Positions 1-9,623 of a stretch of 22,192 nt of DNA are shown here, one piece after another. The position numbers and the translations under genes are program-made. The stretch lies in IMG/VR virus record IMGVR_UViG_3300008119_000146, positions 1 through 22,192 of that record. One strand, written 5' to 3'. Each line of letters starts with the position of its first letter. Within the stretch, counting starts at the first letter, position 1. This stretch comes from a virus. The notes below the pieces were generated by a model. The model was not told where the DNA came from. It made no database searches and saw only the letters and a list, made by a program, of their open reading frames with translations.

Positions 1-939
1 GTTTTTAAGCGCACCTTTCTCAATTCCAACAGCCAAAGGTCGGTATTCCCGCATCTTCAACAAGATCGTTGCCGCAGTCTCACGGATGTCCCAACGCCCA
101 AAGACAATCTCTTTGACAAACCATTTGCCATCATCCGTTACCTTGACCACAGCAATAGCAGTCTGGTCTAGCCTTTTCTTAGAATTAGCCGCTTGTTTGG
201 CAACTTCCTCGAATCCTGCCAAGTCACAGGCTATGTAGTAACTTCCAAACTCAGGTTCAACCCCGTATTTAATCCACTCTTCCTTGAAGATGTCGCTACC
301 TGCATTGGTAAAGGATGCCATGTATTCTTGCTTGAAAGCAAAGGAAGACAGGGTTTTCTTGGCAGACTCAATCTCAGTAGGGTCAATCAGGGGGTTGTCT
401 TTTGTGGTGAAGTGCCAAGATTTCCAGTCCTTATCCTCTTCGCTTTCGCCCAATCGAAAGAGATCGTAAAACCAGTTTCTTCCTTTGGGAGTTCCGATAA
501 ACATGGCTCTTCCTTTTCTATCGGAGAGAGAGGCTCGGATAACTTGTTCCCACGCTTCGGGCTTAATGTCCGCAACTTCGTCAAGGACGGCGTAGGTGAG
601 GGAGACTCCACGGAGGGTATCGGGTCTATCAGCACCTCGGACGTAGATGGTTGCTCCGTTGATGGTGGTGATGTCTTGGTTGTTGATGTGGGCATTTTGG
701 ATAACTTCCCTTCCTAAATCCATTAGAACTTGCCAAATAATCTGTCTAGCCTGACCATTGGTAGGAGCAACATAAAGCACCGCAGAACCCGCAGGGCATT
801 TCAATGCTTCAATAAGTAAGGTGACTGCCGCCATACGGGACTTACCGCACCTACGACCAGCCGCAATTACCTTGAACCTAGTCTTATCCTTGAAGACTTC
901 TTCTTGCCAAGGCAGTAGGGAGAAGTTTAGATCACTCAT
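1..939 (-). CDS. terL: Terminase large subunit (partial, C-terminus beyond window)
   Basis: This is the ATP-driven motor and nuclease that packages phage DNA into procapsids. The first 313 residues are visible and the frame runs off the window at base 1. The sequence shows a Walker A motif (IAAGRRCGKS, residues 25-34), a Walker B motif (TYAVLDE, about 115-121), a coupling motif (FIGTPKG, 147-153), and the start of the RNase H-like nuclease domain with its first acidic residue in YYIACDLAG (D239). A GIEKGA segment near the edge also fits TerL nucleases. The ATG at 939 overlaps the end of the upstream gene by 8 bases, the usual TerS-TerL arrangement. Assignment is firm; the packaging type (cos, headful or direct repeats) cannot be told from what is visible. 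Confidence 0.95.
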   Translation of the reverse strand, partial: MSDLNFSLLPWQEEVFKDKTRFKVIAAGRRCGKSRMAAVTLLIEALKCPAGSAVLYVAPTNGQARQIIWQVLMDLGREVIQNAHINNQDITTINGATIYVRGADRPDTLRGVSLTYAVLDEVADIKPEAWEQVIRASLSDRKGRAMFIGTPKGRNWFYDLFRLGESEEDKDWKSWHFTTKDNPLIDPTEIESAKKTLSSFAFKQEYMASFTNAGSDIFKEEWIKYGVEPEFGSYYIACDLAGFEEVAKQAANSKKRLDQTAIAVVKVTDDGKWFVKEIVFGRWDIRETAATILLKMREYRPLAVGIEKGALKN

Positions 940-1309
940 TCTTAGCCTCTATGTCTTCAGCATCTATGGTTTCAGGGGTATGCGAAATCTCGCCTATTCC
1001 AGTAATGTTGATAGTTACAGCACTACGGGTTTTGCCTTCCTTCTCAAACATAGAGACAGGCAACATTCTGTCCATGCAGAGTTTGATGGCGGCTAGTTGG
1101 GCAGGGTGTTCATCATTCATGGCTATCTCTACCGCCTTATGGACTACTCTAGAACCTGCGCTGTTTATCAGGAGGTTCTTTAATTCTTTGAGTTGAGCAG
1201 TCTCAGTCTTGGGTAGAGTGATGAGTTCAGGCTTATCAGCATAACTGGTAAGGGAGAACTGTTTATTAGTAGAGCCTTTTGGTCTACCACGTGGTTTAGT
1301 TTCAGTCAT
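932..1309 (-). CDS. terS: Probable terminase small subunit
   Basis: This 125-residue protein lies directly upstream of the large terminase and overlaps it by 8 bases, the position expected of the DNA-recognition subunit of the packaging machine. It begins with a basic AT-hook-like segment (KPRGRPKGSTNK, residues 5-16), followed by a helical core containing HPAQLAAIKLCMDRMLPVS. That core resembles small-terminase-like phage proteins that open with GRPKGSTNK (the DUF5681 style). The C-terminal 25 residues are acidic (ETIDAEDIEAKNE). No strong ribosome-binding site is seen before the ATG at 1309. The function is inferred from position and general resemblance, since small terminases diverge too far for motif proof. 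Confidence 0.7.
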   Translation of the reverse strand: MTETKPRGRPKGSTNKQFSLTSYADKPELITLPKTETAQLKELKNLLINSAGSRVVHKAVEIAMNDEHPAQLAAIKLCMDRMLPVSMFEKEGKTRSAVTINITGIGEISHTPETIDAEDIEAKNE

Positions 1310-1754
1310 GTACTTTTGTCCACAAAGGGGAAGTTAGTTGTTGGTAACACGTCCACATAAAGCAGTGTATTTTTGAATTTGCACAACACATTTGGCTACG
1401 GCGCTAACCCGCATTACGCATTACCAACACGGCTGGAGACTGACTATCTAACCCGCCTCAATCAAAGTTTCCTAGGACTGTTGACTCTCAATTAGCGGGG
1501 CTACCAAGTCTTGCGGACTCGGGCTTCAATCTCCATGCGTCTTGGCAACTCTATTATGAACTAGATTTATTTGTTGAACAATAGGGTAATCCCTGATATA
1601 GTAAAGACAACGGGGGCATGACCCACCCCTCTATGCGGTTGAGCCGACCAAGTAGGATAAACGTGATGAACTAGGTGAGTCTCTAGTAGCCCTCTAAATG
1701 CTGTGAAGCAACATAGACAAGGTGGACGGGGCAATGTTACTTAGGCTTGATTGT

Positions 1755-1783
1755 TTGACAAACAGTCTTGTAATCTAGATAAA
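1755..1783 (+). promoter_or_regulatory. Sigma70-like promoter inside the intergenic region
   Basis: A perfect -35 box TTGACA (1755-1760) is followed after 17 bases by GATAAA (1778-1783), a 4/6 match to the -10 consensus. Transcription would start near 1790 and run rightward. The first likely gene is 570 bases downstream, so the transcript would carry a long leader or be a non-coding RNA. Confidence 0.45.
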
Positions 1784-1784
1784 C

Positions 1785-1971
1785 GAGAGGCTCTCTCTTC
1801 TTGAGATTTACCTGTATATACGGGTTACAGGCTATCGTCCGTAACACGTAAGTCAAGGACGGGAAGAAGGGAAGGGAAGTATTAGTTAATAGGACAAGTC
1901 CTTACGGACAGGACAAGTCTTTTCTAGCAATATCCTAAATTGGCTTTTCTTGTGGGGGAGAGGCTCCCACA
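1785..1971 (+). other. Hairpin-rich segment, candidate non-coding RNA or leader
   Basis: Downstream of the 1755 promoter lie consecutive short inverted repeats: GAGAG/CTCTC near 1785, CCTGTA/TACAGG around 1811-1831, CGTCC/GGACG around 1836-1862, and a bulged 8-bp stem TGTGGG(G)AG / CTCCCACA at 1951-1971 with loop AGG. None is followed by a convincing T-run, so I do not call a terminator. Whether these form one folded RNA is inference; no covariance evidence is available here. Confidence 0.25.
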
Positions 1972-2010
1972 AATATTACACAGCACGACTACCCCCTCCC
2001 CCCCATACAT

Positions 2011-2160
2011 AAGTAAGCACTAACTAACTTAGATGTTAGCAACCACTAACTTGTATGTTAGCAAGCACTAACTAACTATGTCAGCGTAAGTAAGTAAGCA
2101 CACACTAACTAAGTAGGTTAGTAGTTACTAACTTATTGGTAAGTGAGCACTCACTAACTT
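2011..2160. repeat. Array of six 20-bp imperfect palindromes
   Basis: Six copies of an imperfect palindrome with consensus ANGTNAGY-ANNN-ACTAACTW lie at 2011-2030, 2033-2052, 2055-2074, 2092-2111, 2115-2134 and 2141-2160. The right arm ACTAACTW is invariant; the left arm approaches its reverse complement AAGTTAGT. Start-to-start distances are 22, 22, 37, 23 and 26 bp, so several neighbours sit about two helical turns apart on one DNA face. A seventh copy lies at 9225-9244. The layout fits an operator or iteron array bound by a dimeric protein. It is not a CRISPR: spacers are only 2-17 bp and irregular. Confidence 0.8.
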
Positions 2161-2360: not shown

Positions 2361-3119
2361 ATGCGTAACCCATACAAAACCCGATTAGCCGCTTTAGGGC
2401 TAACCTACAAAACGATTCTAGGTGAATCATCCACCAAAACGATCAAAGGGGAAAAATTAGGTTTTCTCACGGGTATCGTTTACCTAGTACCTGATTCCAA
2501 GATTTGTGCTCATGCCAAATTAGCAGGTTGTCTGATTCCGTGCCTTGCTACAGCGGGTAGAGGGGCTTTTAATAGTGTGCAAAATGCCAGGCAAGCGAAA
2601 ACCCAATTTTTCTACACAAACCAGCAAGCATTTTTATTGTCATTGGCCGCCGATATATGGTCGTTGCAAAATAGAGCGGCTAAATTAGGTTTTACCCCTT
2701 TAGTGCGACCAAATGGGACAAGCGATATCCCATACGAAAATTTACCAGTAGTGGACGGATTAAACATTTTCCAATTATTTCCACAGGTGCAATTCTATGA
2801 TTACACAAAACATCCAAGCCGCAATTTAACGGGTAAAACGTGTAATAACTATGATCTAACCTTTAGTTTTAGTGCTATCACACCAAAACCTATAAGCATA
2901 AAAGGGCTAACTAATCCGCATAATTCCCGTGTTGCTGTAGTTTTCCAAAAACGTGCCGATATCCCTAAAGTTTTCCGTGCTTGGCAAGTAGTGGATGGGG
3001 ATGATACGGACGTGCGACATATAGAGCCAAAATCCGTTGTAGTGGCACTCTATGCTAAAGGGAAAGCAAAACATGATACAAGCGGCTTCACTCAAATCAA
3101 AGGGGTGCATTATGCGTAA
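2361..3119 (+). CDS. GP88-like phage protein of unknown function
   Basis: The 252-residue protein resembles the phage 'gene product 88' family. It has a cysteine cluster after a glycine-rich strand (C49, C57, C61 in SKICAHAKLAGCLIPCLATA), an AGRG turn (65-68), an RPNGTSDI motif (116-123), FPQVQFYDYTK (140-150), and a late VVDGDDTDVRH (210-220) followed by AKGKAKHDTSGF (232-243). These blocks appear in the family order; the biochemical role of the family is not known to me. A weak ribosome-binding site (AGGTG) precedes the ATG. The gene heads an AT-rich rightward cassette set between leftward terminase and replication genes, preceded by the palindrome array and followed by a strong terminator, which suggests an independently regulated or acquired unit. 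Confidence 0.8.
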   Translation: MRNPYKTRLAALGLTYKTILGESSTKTIKGEKLGFLTGIVYLVPDSKICAHAKLAGCLIPCLATAGRGAFNSVQNARQAKTQFFYTNQQAFLLSLAADIWSLQNRAAKLGFTPLVRPNGTSDIPYENLPVVDGLNIFQLFPQVQFYDYTKHPSRNLTGKTCNNYDLTFSFSAITPKPISIKGLTNPHNSRVAVVFQKRADIPKVFRAWQVVDGDDTDVRHIEPKSVVVALYAKGKAKHDTSGFTQIKGVHYA

Positions 3120-3618: not shown

Positions 3619-3640
3619 AACCCGCTTCGGCGGGTTTTTT
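3619..3640 (+). terminator. Rho-independent terminator of the GP88 cassette
   Basis: A perfect 7-bp stem AACCCGC / GCGGGTT closes on a stable TTCG tetraloop (3626-3629) and runs into a T-tract (3635-3640). This is a textbook intrinsic terminator for rightward transcription. Confidence 0.92.
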
Positions 3641-3759: not shown

Positions 3760-3975
3760 CTAGTCATGCGGGTAATTGTCCGTAGTTGATACGGTTACTA
3801 GTCCCACAACGTTTAAATCCATGTCAGGGGTTAGCCCTAAATTGTGGAAATGAGCCGCCCACACAATTGCAATCCGAAAACCCTCGCTCATATTGCCGCC
3901 GCCTATGGTTGTCAGAATCTTATGATCATTTGGCGTAAATTTAACGTGTATCGCTTTTTTCTCTTGTTTTTCCAT
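3760..3975 (-). CDS. Small ribbon-helix-helix-like protein (possible DNA-binding)
   Basis: The 71-residue product starts with a basic strand-like segment (KKAIHVKFTPNDHKIL, 6-21), then a GGGNMSEGFRIAI turn-helix (25-37). This pattern resembles ribbon-helix-helix repressors, where a strand pairs across a dimer and a following helix starts after a Ser-Glu-Gly turn. The gene overlaps the end of the RuvC-like gene by 35 bases and is the last gene of the leftward operon. The fold is inferred by eye; an autoregulatory role would fit but is not shown. Confidence 0.55.
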   Translation of the reverse strand: MEKQEKKAIHVKFTPNDHKILTTIGGGNMSEGFRIAIVWAAHFHNLGLTPDMDLNVVGLVTVSTTDNYPHD

Positions 3976-9204: not shown

Positions 9205-9224
9205 TATCAATACGGGGAAAGCGT

Positions 9225-9244
9225 AAGTAAGTACCCACTAACTT
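9225..9244. promoter_or_regulatory. Seventh copy of the 20-bp palindrome (putative operator)
   Basis: AAGTAAGT-ACCC-ACTAACTT is the most symmetrical copy of the element found six times at 2011-2160 (arms match at 7 of 8 positions). It shares 14 identical bases, AGCGTAAGTAAGTA (9220-9233), with 2083-2096 in the array. It lies 19 bases before the first start codon of the winged-helix gene. Confidence 0.65.
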
Positions 9245-9248
9245 AATT

Positions 9249-9296
9249 AACAGGAGTTCACAAATGAGTTTTAATAGGGATTCACAAATGAGTATA
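9249..9296 (+). repeat. 24-bp tandem duplication of a ribosome-binding site and start codon
   Basis: Units 9249-9272 and 9273-9296 match at 19 of 24 positions. Each holds a purine-rich site (CAGGAG or TAGGGA), the identical block TTCACAAATGAGT and an ATG (9264 and 9288). Because the unit is 24 bases, the two start codons are in frame. Confidence 0.75.
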
Positions 9297-9623
9297 TTAG
9301 ACAAAACATGGTTTGAAGGTGGAGTAGAGAAGTTCTTTGGTTCACAGTCATTCGTAAGGGCAAGGATCATTGATCCATTAACAAGCCACATGGCGGCTGA
9401 AAGCGTCACCAATGTAGCACCAGCCCACATTGAGGTCATCTACGCTTGTTTAAAGCGGTTTGGGCCACTAGGTAAGGATGGAATAGCAAAGCAAACTGGT
9501 CTGAGAAATGACCAAGTGTGGCGCAGGTTGCCAGAGATGCAGAAACTAGGAATGATTGGACTAACTGGTAAGACAGTTGCATCCAATTCTGGTAGACAAG
9601 AGCGTGAGTGGATCATCCTGTGA
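9264..9623 (+). CDS. Winged-helix-like DNA-binding protein
   Basis: The 119-residue product (111 from the second ATG) ends in a clear helix-turn-helix: HIEVIYACLKRFGPLGKDGI (55-74), AKQTGLRNDQVWRRLPEMQK (75-94), then a wing-like LGMIGLTGKTVASNSGRQER. The pattern fits a MarR/wHTH-type fold in which GLRNDQVWRRL is the recognition helix. The single palindrome copy at 9225-9244 sits right upstream, so this protein may bind the palindromes and control itself; that is inference. Two in-frame starts each have their own ribosome-binding site, so two forms could be made. Confidence 0.7.
   Translation: MSFNRDSQMSILDKTWFEGGVEKFFGSQSFVRARIIDPLTSHMAAESVTNVAPAHIEVIYACLKRFGPLGKDGIAKQTGLRNDQVWRRLPEMQKLGMIGLTGKTVASNSGRQEREWIIL

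Follow-up and report, generated by a model that had tools for sequence, protein, structure and literature searches.

Lambda O iterons and the operator sets of phage repressors consist of imperfect palindromes spaced along a control region. Among host proteins, SlmA binds DNA as a dimer of dimers (PMC5519180, PMC4117426), and its E. coli site has the consensus GTGAGTACTCAC, with about 50 sites per genome and none in Ter (review, PMC3116907). DNAs that bind SlmA include SBScons (AAGTAAGTGAGCGCTCACTTACGT), SBS17 and SBS12 (PMC4423959). Binding to its site (SBS) activates SlmA against FtsZ (PMC4117426). In E. coli, tandem SlmA sites on a multicopy plasmid impose a lethal, SlmA-dependent division block, and the plasmid that does so carries two sites (PMC3573117, PMC4117426).

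The window analysed here, an IMG/VR virus record of 22,192 bases, carries seven 20-bp palindromes, six of them at 2011-2160 and the other at 9225-9244. The array is placed in a long non-coding stretch, with the divergent small terminase gene on one side and the GP88 gene on the other, and is followed by an AT-rich stretch. The features are as follows.

932..1309, minus strand: candidate small terminase (TerS) gene, from its position beside TerL and synteny; the Pfam match is only weak
1331..1350: weak and uncertain candidate site before TerS, AAGTTAGTTGTTGGTAACAC (matrix score 12.1)
1574..1602, plus strand: sigma70-like promoter, TTGAAC-N17-TATAGT, preceding the conserved non-coding RNA region
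1604..1990, plus strand: conserved structured non-coding region, a candidate RNA upstream of the array; a neighbour, not part of the sites
2011..2030: site 1, AAGTAAGCACTAACTAACTT (reading and matrix score)
2033..2052: site 2, ATGTTAGCAACCACTAACTT (reading and matrix score)
2055..2074: site 3, ATGTTAGCAAGCACTAACTA, with an overlapping ladder register at 2059 (reading and matrix score)
2092..2111: site 4, AAGTAAGCACACACTAACTA, with an overlapping ladder register at 2088 (reading and matrix score)
2115..2134: site 5, AGGTTAGTAGTTACTAACTT (reading and matrix score)
2139..2160: site 6, given as the 20-mer 2141-2160 in an earlier note on this DNA (matrix score and comparison with SBScons)
2361..3119, plus strand: GP88 (PF17338) gene, first of the cassette after the array (Pfam match)
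9225..9244: dispersed site, AAGTAAGTACCCACTAACTT, between the SSB gene and a winged-helix-like gene (reading, matrix score and position kept in relatives)

Sequence reading and a symmetric 20-bp weight matrix both find the seven copies, and their matrix scores are far above chance: leave-one-out scores were 19.0-24.8, and 100 simulated 22-kb sequences gave at most 18.0. The earlier note had described these seven copies as one operator family. They do form a genuine family of protein-binding sites, with an array and dispersed copies at fixed places, but the assignment to a phage regulator is not supported, as discussed below. The 14-nt identity it saw between the two loci is borne out, with AGCGTAAGTAAGTA present near 2083 and near 9221, and its spacing of about two helical turns for several copies is corrected to start-to-start distances of 22, 22, 37, 23 and 26 bp. 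Scanned with the matrix, the window has no other strong copy. The best site outside the array and the 9225 copy is that at 1331-1350, 22 bp before the small-terminase start, and chance alone is expected to give 0.2 scores as high as its 12.1 per simulated window.

A ladder of GTNAGY and RCTNAC half-sites describes the copies better than palindromes do. Inward half-site spacings in the window array are 0 (two cases), 4 (seven), 8 (three) and 12 (one). A motif-only pattern scan of IMG/VR returned at least 120 stretches, from which 101 array regions were taken; in these, the inverted pair GTNAGY...RCTNAC has spacings of 0 (289), 4 (649) and 8 (190), with almost nothing else below 17, and direct half-site repeats are spaced by 4 bp (245). 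RNA hairpins were considered and rejected as an explanation. The 4-base spacer fits, but mismatches between the two halves recur at fixed positions (AAGTAAGY opposite ACTAACTT, by inspection), and hence protein binding fits better.

More than 100 other IMG/VR phage contigs have arrays of the same motif, and in most of them the terminases are unrelated. Relatives of the window's large terminase were found in only 13 of 115 motif-scan loci, many of which are partial; most array contigs are fragments. All of 105 arrays lie clear of long ORFs. The arrays are intergenic, mostly between divergent genes (49 of the 80 loci in which both neighbours were scored), and in many phages they adjoin terminase genes, while single sites are placed just before genes or at gene ends. 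In one locus (L227) the sites are regular, exactly 23 bp apart. The TerS of another (L228) shows no similarity to that of the window, and the motif is common to both. Sites shared by phages that share no phage gene point to a host protein as the binder. No SlmA homolog was found by tblastn at E<=1 in the viral loci examined. As a separate observation, arrays in phages with unrelated terminases are often near GP88 genes or possibly related DUF7227 genes, on the opposite side from the terminase (L266, L356, L292 and the window).

The ladder is also that of the published SlmA sites. Inward half-site spacings are 0, 4 and 8 in SBScons, 4 and 8 in SBS17, and 0 and 4 in SBS12, and the 0/4/8 pattern of the window and the phage arrays is consistent with binding by a dimer of dimers. 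Furthermore, window positions 2139-2158 (GTAAGTGAGCACTCACTAAC) agree with the SBScons core (GTAAGTGAGCGCTCACTTAC) at 18 of 20 positions; 5 mismatches was the minimum in 200 simulated sequences. Of the twelve best matches to the core in the window, nine fall in the array and two at the 9225 site, the remaining one, with 8 mismatches, lying elsewhere. Site 4, read at 2090-2109, has 4 mismatches to the published consensus core; sites 2, 3 and 5 fit its spacing-4 part, not the full core. Matches with at most 4 mismatches were present in 96 of the 115 motif-scan loci, compared with 1 of 19 control loci. Identification of the array as a set of sites for the SlmA of the host is, in our view, well supported.

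Similar-looking arrays turned up in a genome scan, on chromosome contigs of Clostridia and Treponema (L363, L407, L399 and L433), where GTTAGC-N4-GCTAAC palindromes recur at intervals of about 34 bp. We do not count these as the same element: their spacing is almost only 4 (114, versus 7 at 0 and 5 at 8), and hence they are probably operators of another regulator.

Bacterial genomes give a second line of comparison. In a sample of 275 genomes from one GTDB class, 59 have SlmA above the NCBIfam cut-off and 216 do not. The ladder GTNAGTRCTNACTNAC is present in 13 of the 59 slmA-bearing genomes versus 8 of the 216 that lack slmA (Fisher p=3e-5), and the ratio of ladder matches to matches of a reversed-pattern control is 19:4 in the former and 8:18 in the latter (p=4e-4). 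The looser pattern GTNAGTN4ACTNAC (spacing 4) was not enriched over its control in slmA-bearing genomes (113 vs 116, hand tally), and GTTAGTN4ACTAAC-only and spacing-4 patterns were weak discriminators across the 275 genomes, except for G110 and its sole family mate, G304. In these two genomes a ladder site lies directly before dfp, the start of a dfp-dut-...-slmA gene cluster. Over 17 loci with the dfp-dut-...-slmA arrangement, the radC-dfp spacer upstream of the cluster shows about 39-fold enrichment of ladder-like sites, and 7 of these loci have such a site there; this enrichment counts overlapping registers of one site separately, so that its nominal p-value overstates the evidence. Ladder sites were seen in this spacer in several slmA-carrying genomes (e.g. 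L504:1553-1572 and L510:3734-3757), and none was found in the radC-dfp spacer of E. coli. Binding of a host regulator ahead of the cluster that encodes it would have the appearance of autoregulation, and the radC-dfp sites suggest that SlmA may regulate itself. By eye, the recognition-helix region of G110 SlmA is nearly identical to that of E. coli SlmA.

Relatives of the window show where the sites are kept. In 9 near-complete relatives, strong sites are found at three places only: after the non-coding RNA, at the cassette end just before the terminator, and after the SSB gene. The last of these, the 9225-type site, is kept in two relatives (G005 and G006) in which the gene that follows it is not homologous to that in the window. 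Conservation of the post-SSB block GGGGAAAGCGTAAGTRAGTACCCACTAACTT (window 9215-9246 and relatives) extends to its spacer and holds even where the downstream genes differ; a further group of relatives has unrelated sequence in its place, with no more than a half-site. At the cassette end of many relatives, the stop codon of the last gene lies within a perfect or near-perfect site, and an intrinsic terminator follows at once (L089:3201, L208:4141, L224:4841, L112:2939 and others), and the window has at this place only the remnant CACTAAC, at about 3615, before a terminator at 3619.

The array itself is variable. The 95 distinct relatives that share the non-coding region have between 0 and 6 array sites. 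There is no array site in 9 of 22 loci whose TerS is at least 90% identical to that of the window; L003 has a TerS 100% identical over the aligned part, yet lacks an array site. Since it is absent from relatives with near-identical TerS and the same non-coding RNA region, the array is an accessory element, required neither by the terminase nor by the flanking RNA region. For the same reason the suggestion in the earlier note that the array could be a replication site is disfavoured. Replication probably does not depend on it, although the origins of the many relatives that keep the flanking region and are missing the array may differ. A BLAST search with the array sequence against records of cultured phages found nothing, and the array was not found in the stretches examined of Limnohabitans phage DC31, three Manatee Spring phages, DSL-LC05, Venkman and a Pseudomonas phage. 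DSL-LC05, closely related in its terminase, bears a label that gives Gammaproteobacteria as its hosts, and its lack of an array counts against the explanation proposed below.

The region upstream of the array deserves separate mention. At 1574-1990, the sigma70-like promoter, an equivalent of which is present by eye in relatives, is followed by a strongly conserved non-coding region, and a 26-mer from the latter, GGTTGAGCCGACCAAGTAGGATAAAC, is exact in at least 119 IMG/VR stretches. For 67 non-redundant sequences, the consensus fold has an energy of -80.9, versus a mean of -20.3 in column-shuffled alignments, with compensatory changes in 21 of its 60 pairs. An Rfam search with the region gave no match. 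We regard 1604-1990 as a candidate new structured phage RNA. On the other side of the array, the AlphaFold model of GP88 has a mean pLDDT of 62.5.

What would SlmA sites do on phage DNA? The best explanation, to which we assign a probability of roughly 60%, is that the array carries host SlmA sites and blocks division through antagonism of FtsZ. SlmA, a host TetR-family nucleoid-occlusion protein, would bind the sites gathered as an array on phage DNA and would thereby be activated to antagonise FtsZ. Replication of the phage genome would carry SlmA activity throughout the cell, preventing septum formation and keeping the host undivided during phage production. A replicating phage with seven sites would be comparable to the two-site multicopy plasmid and could stall division. 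We infer the presence of SlmA in the host, its binding to the copies, and division block as the outcome in preference to regulation or tethering.

The phage array resembles the chromosomal SBS of E. coli and its relatives in its GTNAGT/ACTNAC half-sites and 4-bp ladder, and the SBS consensus core is within 2 mismatches of window 2139-2158. Those sites are dispersed and single, about 24-50 per genome with none in Ter (PMC3116907), whereas the phage sites form tandem arrays. The synthetic SBS plasmids pHC534 and p2SBSK likewise place several SlmA sites on multicopy DNA, but they are laboratory constructs with two sites and a lethal SlmA-dependent block (PMC3573117, PMC4117426), whereas the phage array is natural and its effect on division is predicted. 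Division block during infection, which is only proposed for the array, is a property of lambda Kil-type FtsZ inhibitors (PMC3961180); these are proteins, whereas the array would act as DNA and recruit an inhibitor made by the host. In contrast to lambda O iterons and repressor operators, with which it shares spaced imperfect palindromes, the window array is dispensable among close relatives, has no shared candidate phage binder and matches the site of a host protein.

The main rival of division block also has SlmA as the binder, which would either control the divergent promoters of TerS and the GP88 cassette or tether the phage DNA away from the division site or to the membrane, without a general division block. 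The intergenic location of arrays, mostly between divergent genes, and that of single sites, shortly ahead of genes or at gene ends, is in keeping with this, and SlmA is known both to activate the chitobiose operon in Vibrio cholerae (PMC5519180) and to bind lipid membranes (PMC7468209). However, the change from 0 to 6 copies between relatives with near-identical flanks is unusual for a promoter operator, and SlmA sites placed upstream of a promoter had no effect in a lacZ test in E. coli (PMC3573117). We regard a regulator or tether as unlikely, although it is the alternative to be taken most seriously.

Explanations that place the binder in the phage fare less well. The earlier note suggested that one phage protein links control of the GP88 cassette with the early operon, and operators of a phage-encoded regulator, such as the 3760-3975 or the 9264-9623 product, would account for the recurrence of sites at three fixed places in the near-complete relatives. 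By eye, the 3760-3975 product resembles a small ribbon-helix-helix protein, and the 9264-9623 product gives weak wHTH-type matches, but neither has a Pfam match, and homologs are present in only 6 and 2, respectively, of the 115 motif-scan loci, many of them partial. Persistence of the 9225-type site before a different downstream gene also argues against this proposal, which would leave unexplained the match to E. coli SlmA sites and the slmA-linked chromosomal sites; we consider it improbable. Still less credible is a packaging (TerS-binding) site or a set of replication-origin iterons. Proximity to terminase genes in many phages, the regular spacing in L227 and the AT-rich stretch after the window array would suit such a role, but not the loci with near-identical TerS and no array site. 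A packaging site is further opposed by the dissimilar TerS proteins of L228 and the window, which share the motif, and by the distance of the 9225 and cassette-end sites from TerS.

We found no earlier report of phage SlmA-site arrays in the open-access literature searched. Division block by SlmA sites may extend well beyond the window: we tentatively propose, at somewhat less than even odds, a widespread class of freshwater phages in which tandem SlmA-site arrays act as a protein-free, DNA-encoded division inhibitor, recruiting SlmA against FtsZ throughout the cell. If this is true, phages would subvert cell division by DNA alone, supplying activating sites for a host nucleoid-occlusion factor and no protein, and nucleoid occlusion would gain a role in phage infection. 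The recurrent terminase-adjacent array in many unrelated aquatic phages would be explained, and the array would be a sequence mark that predicts slmA-carrying hosts.
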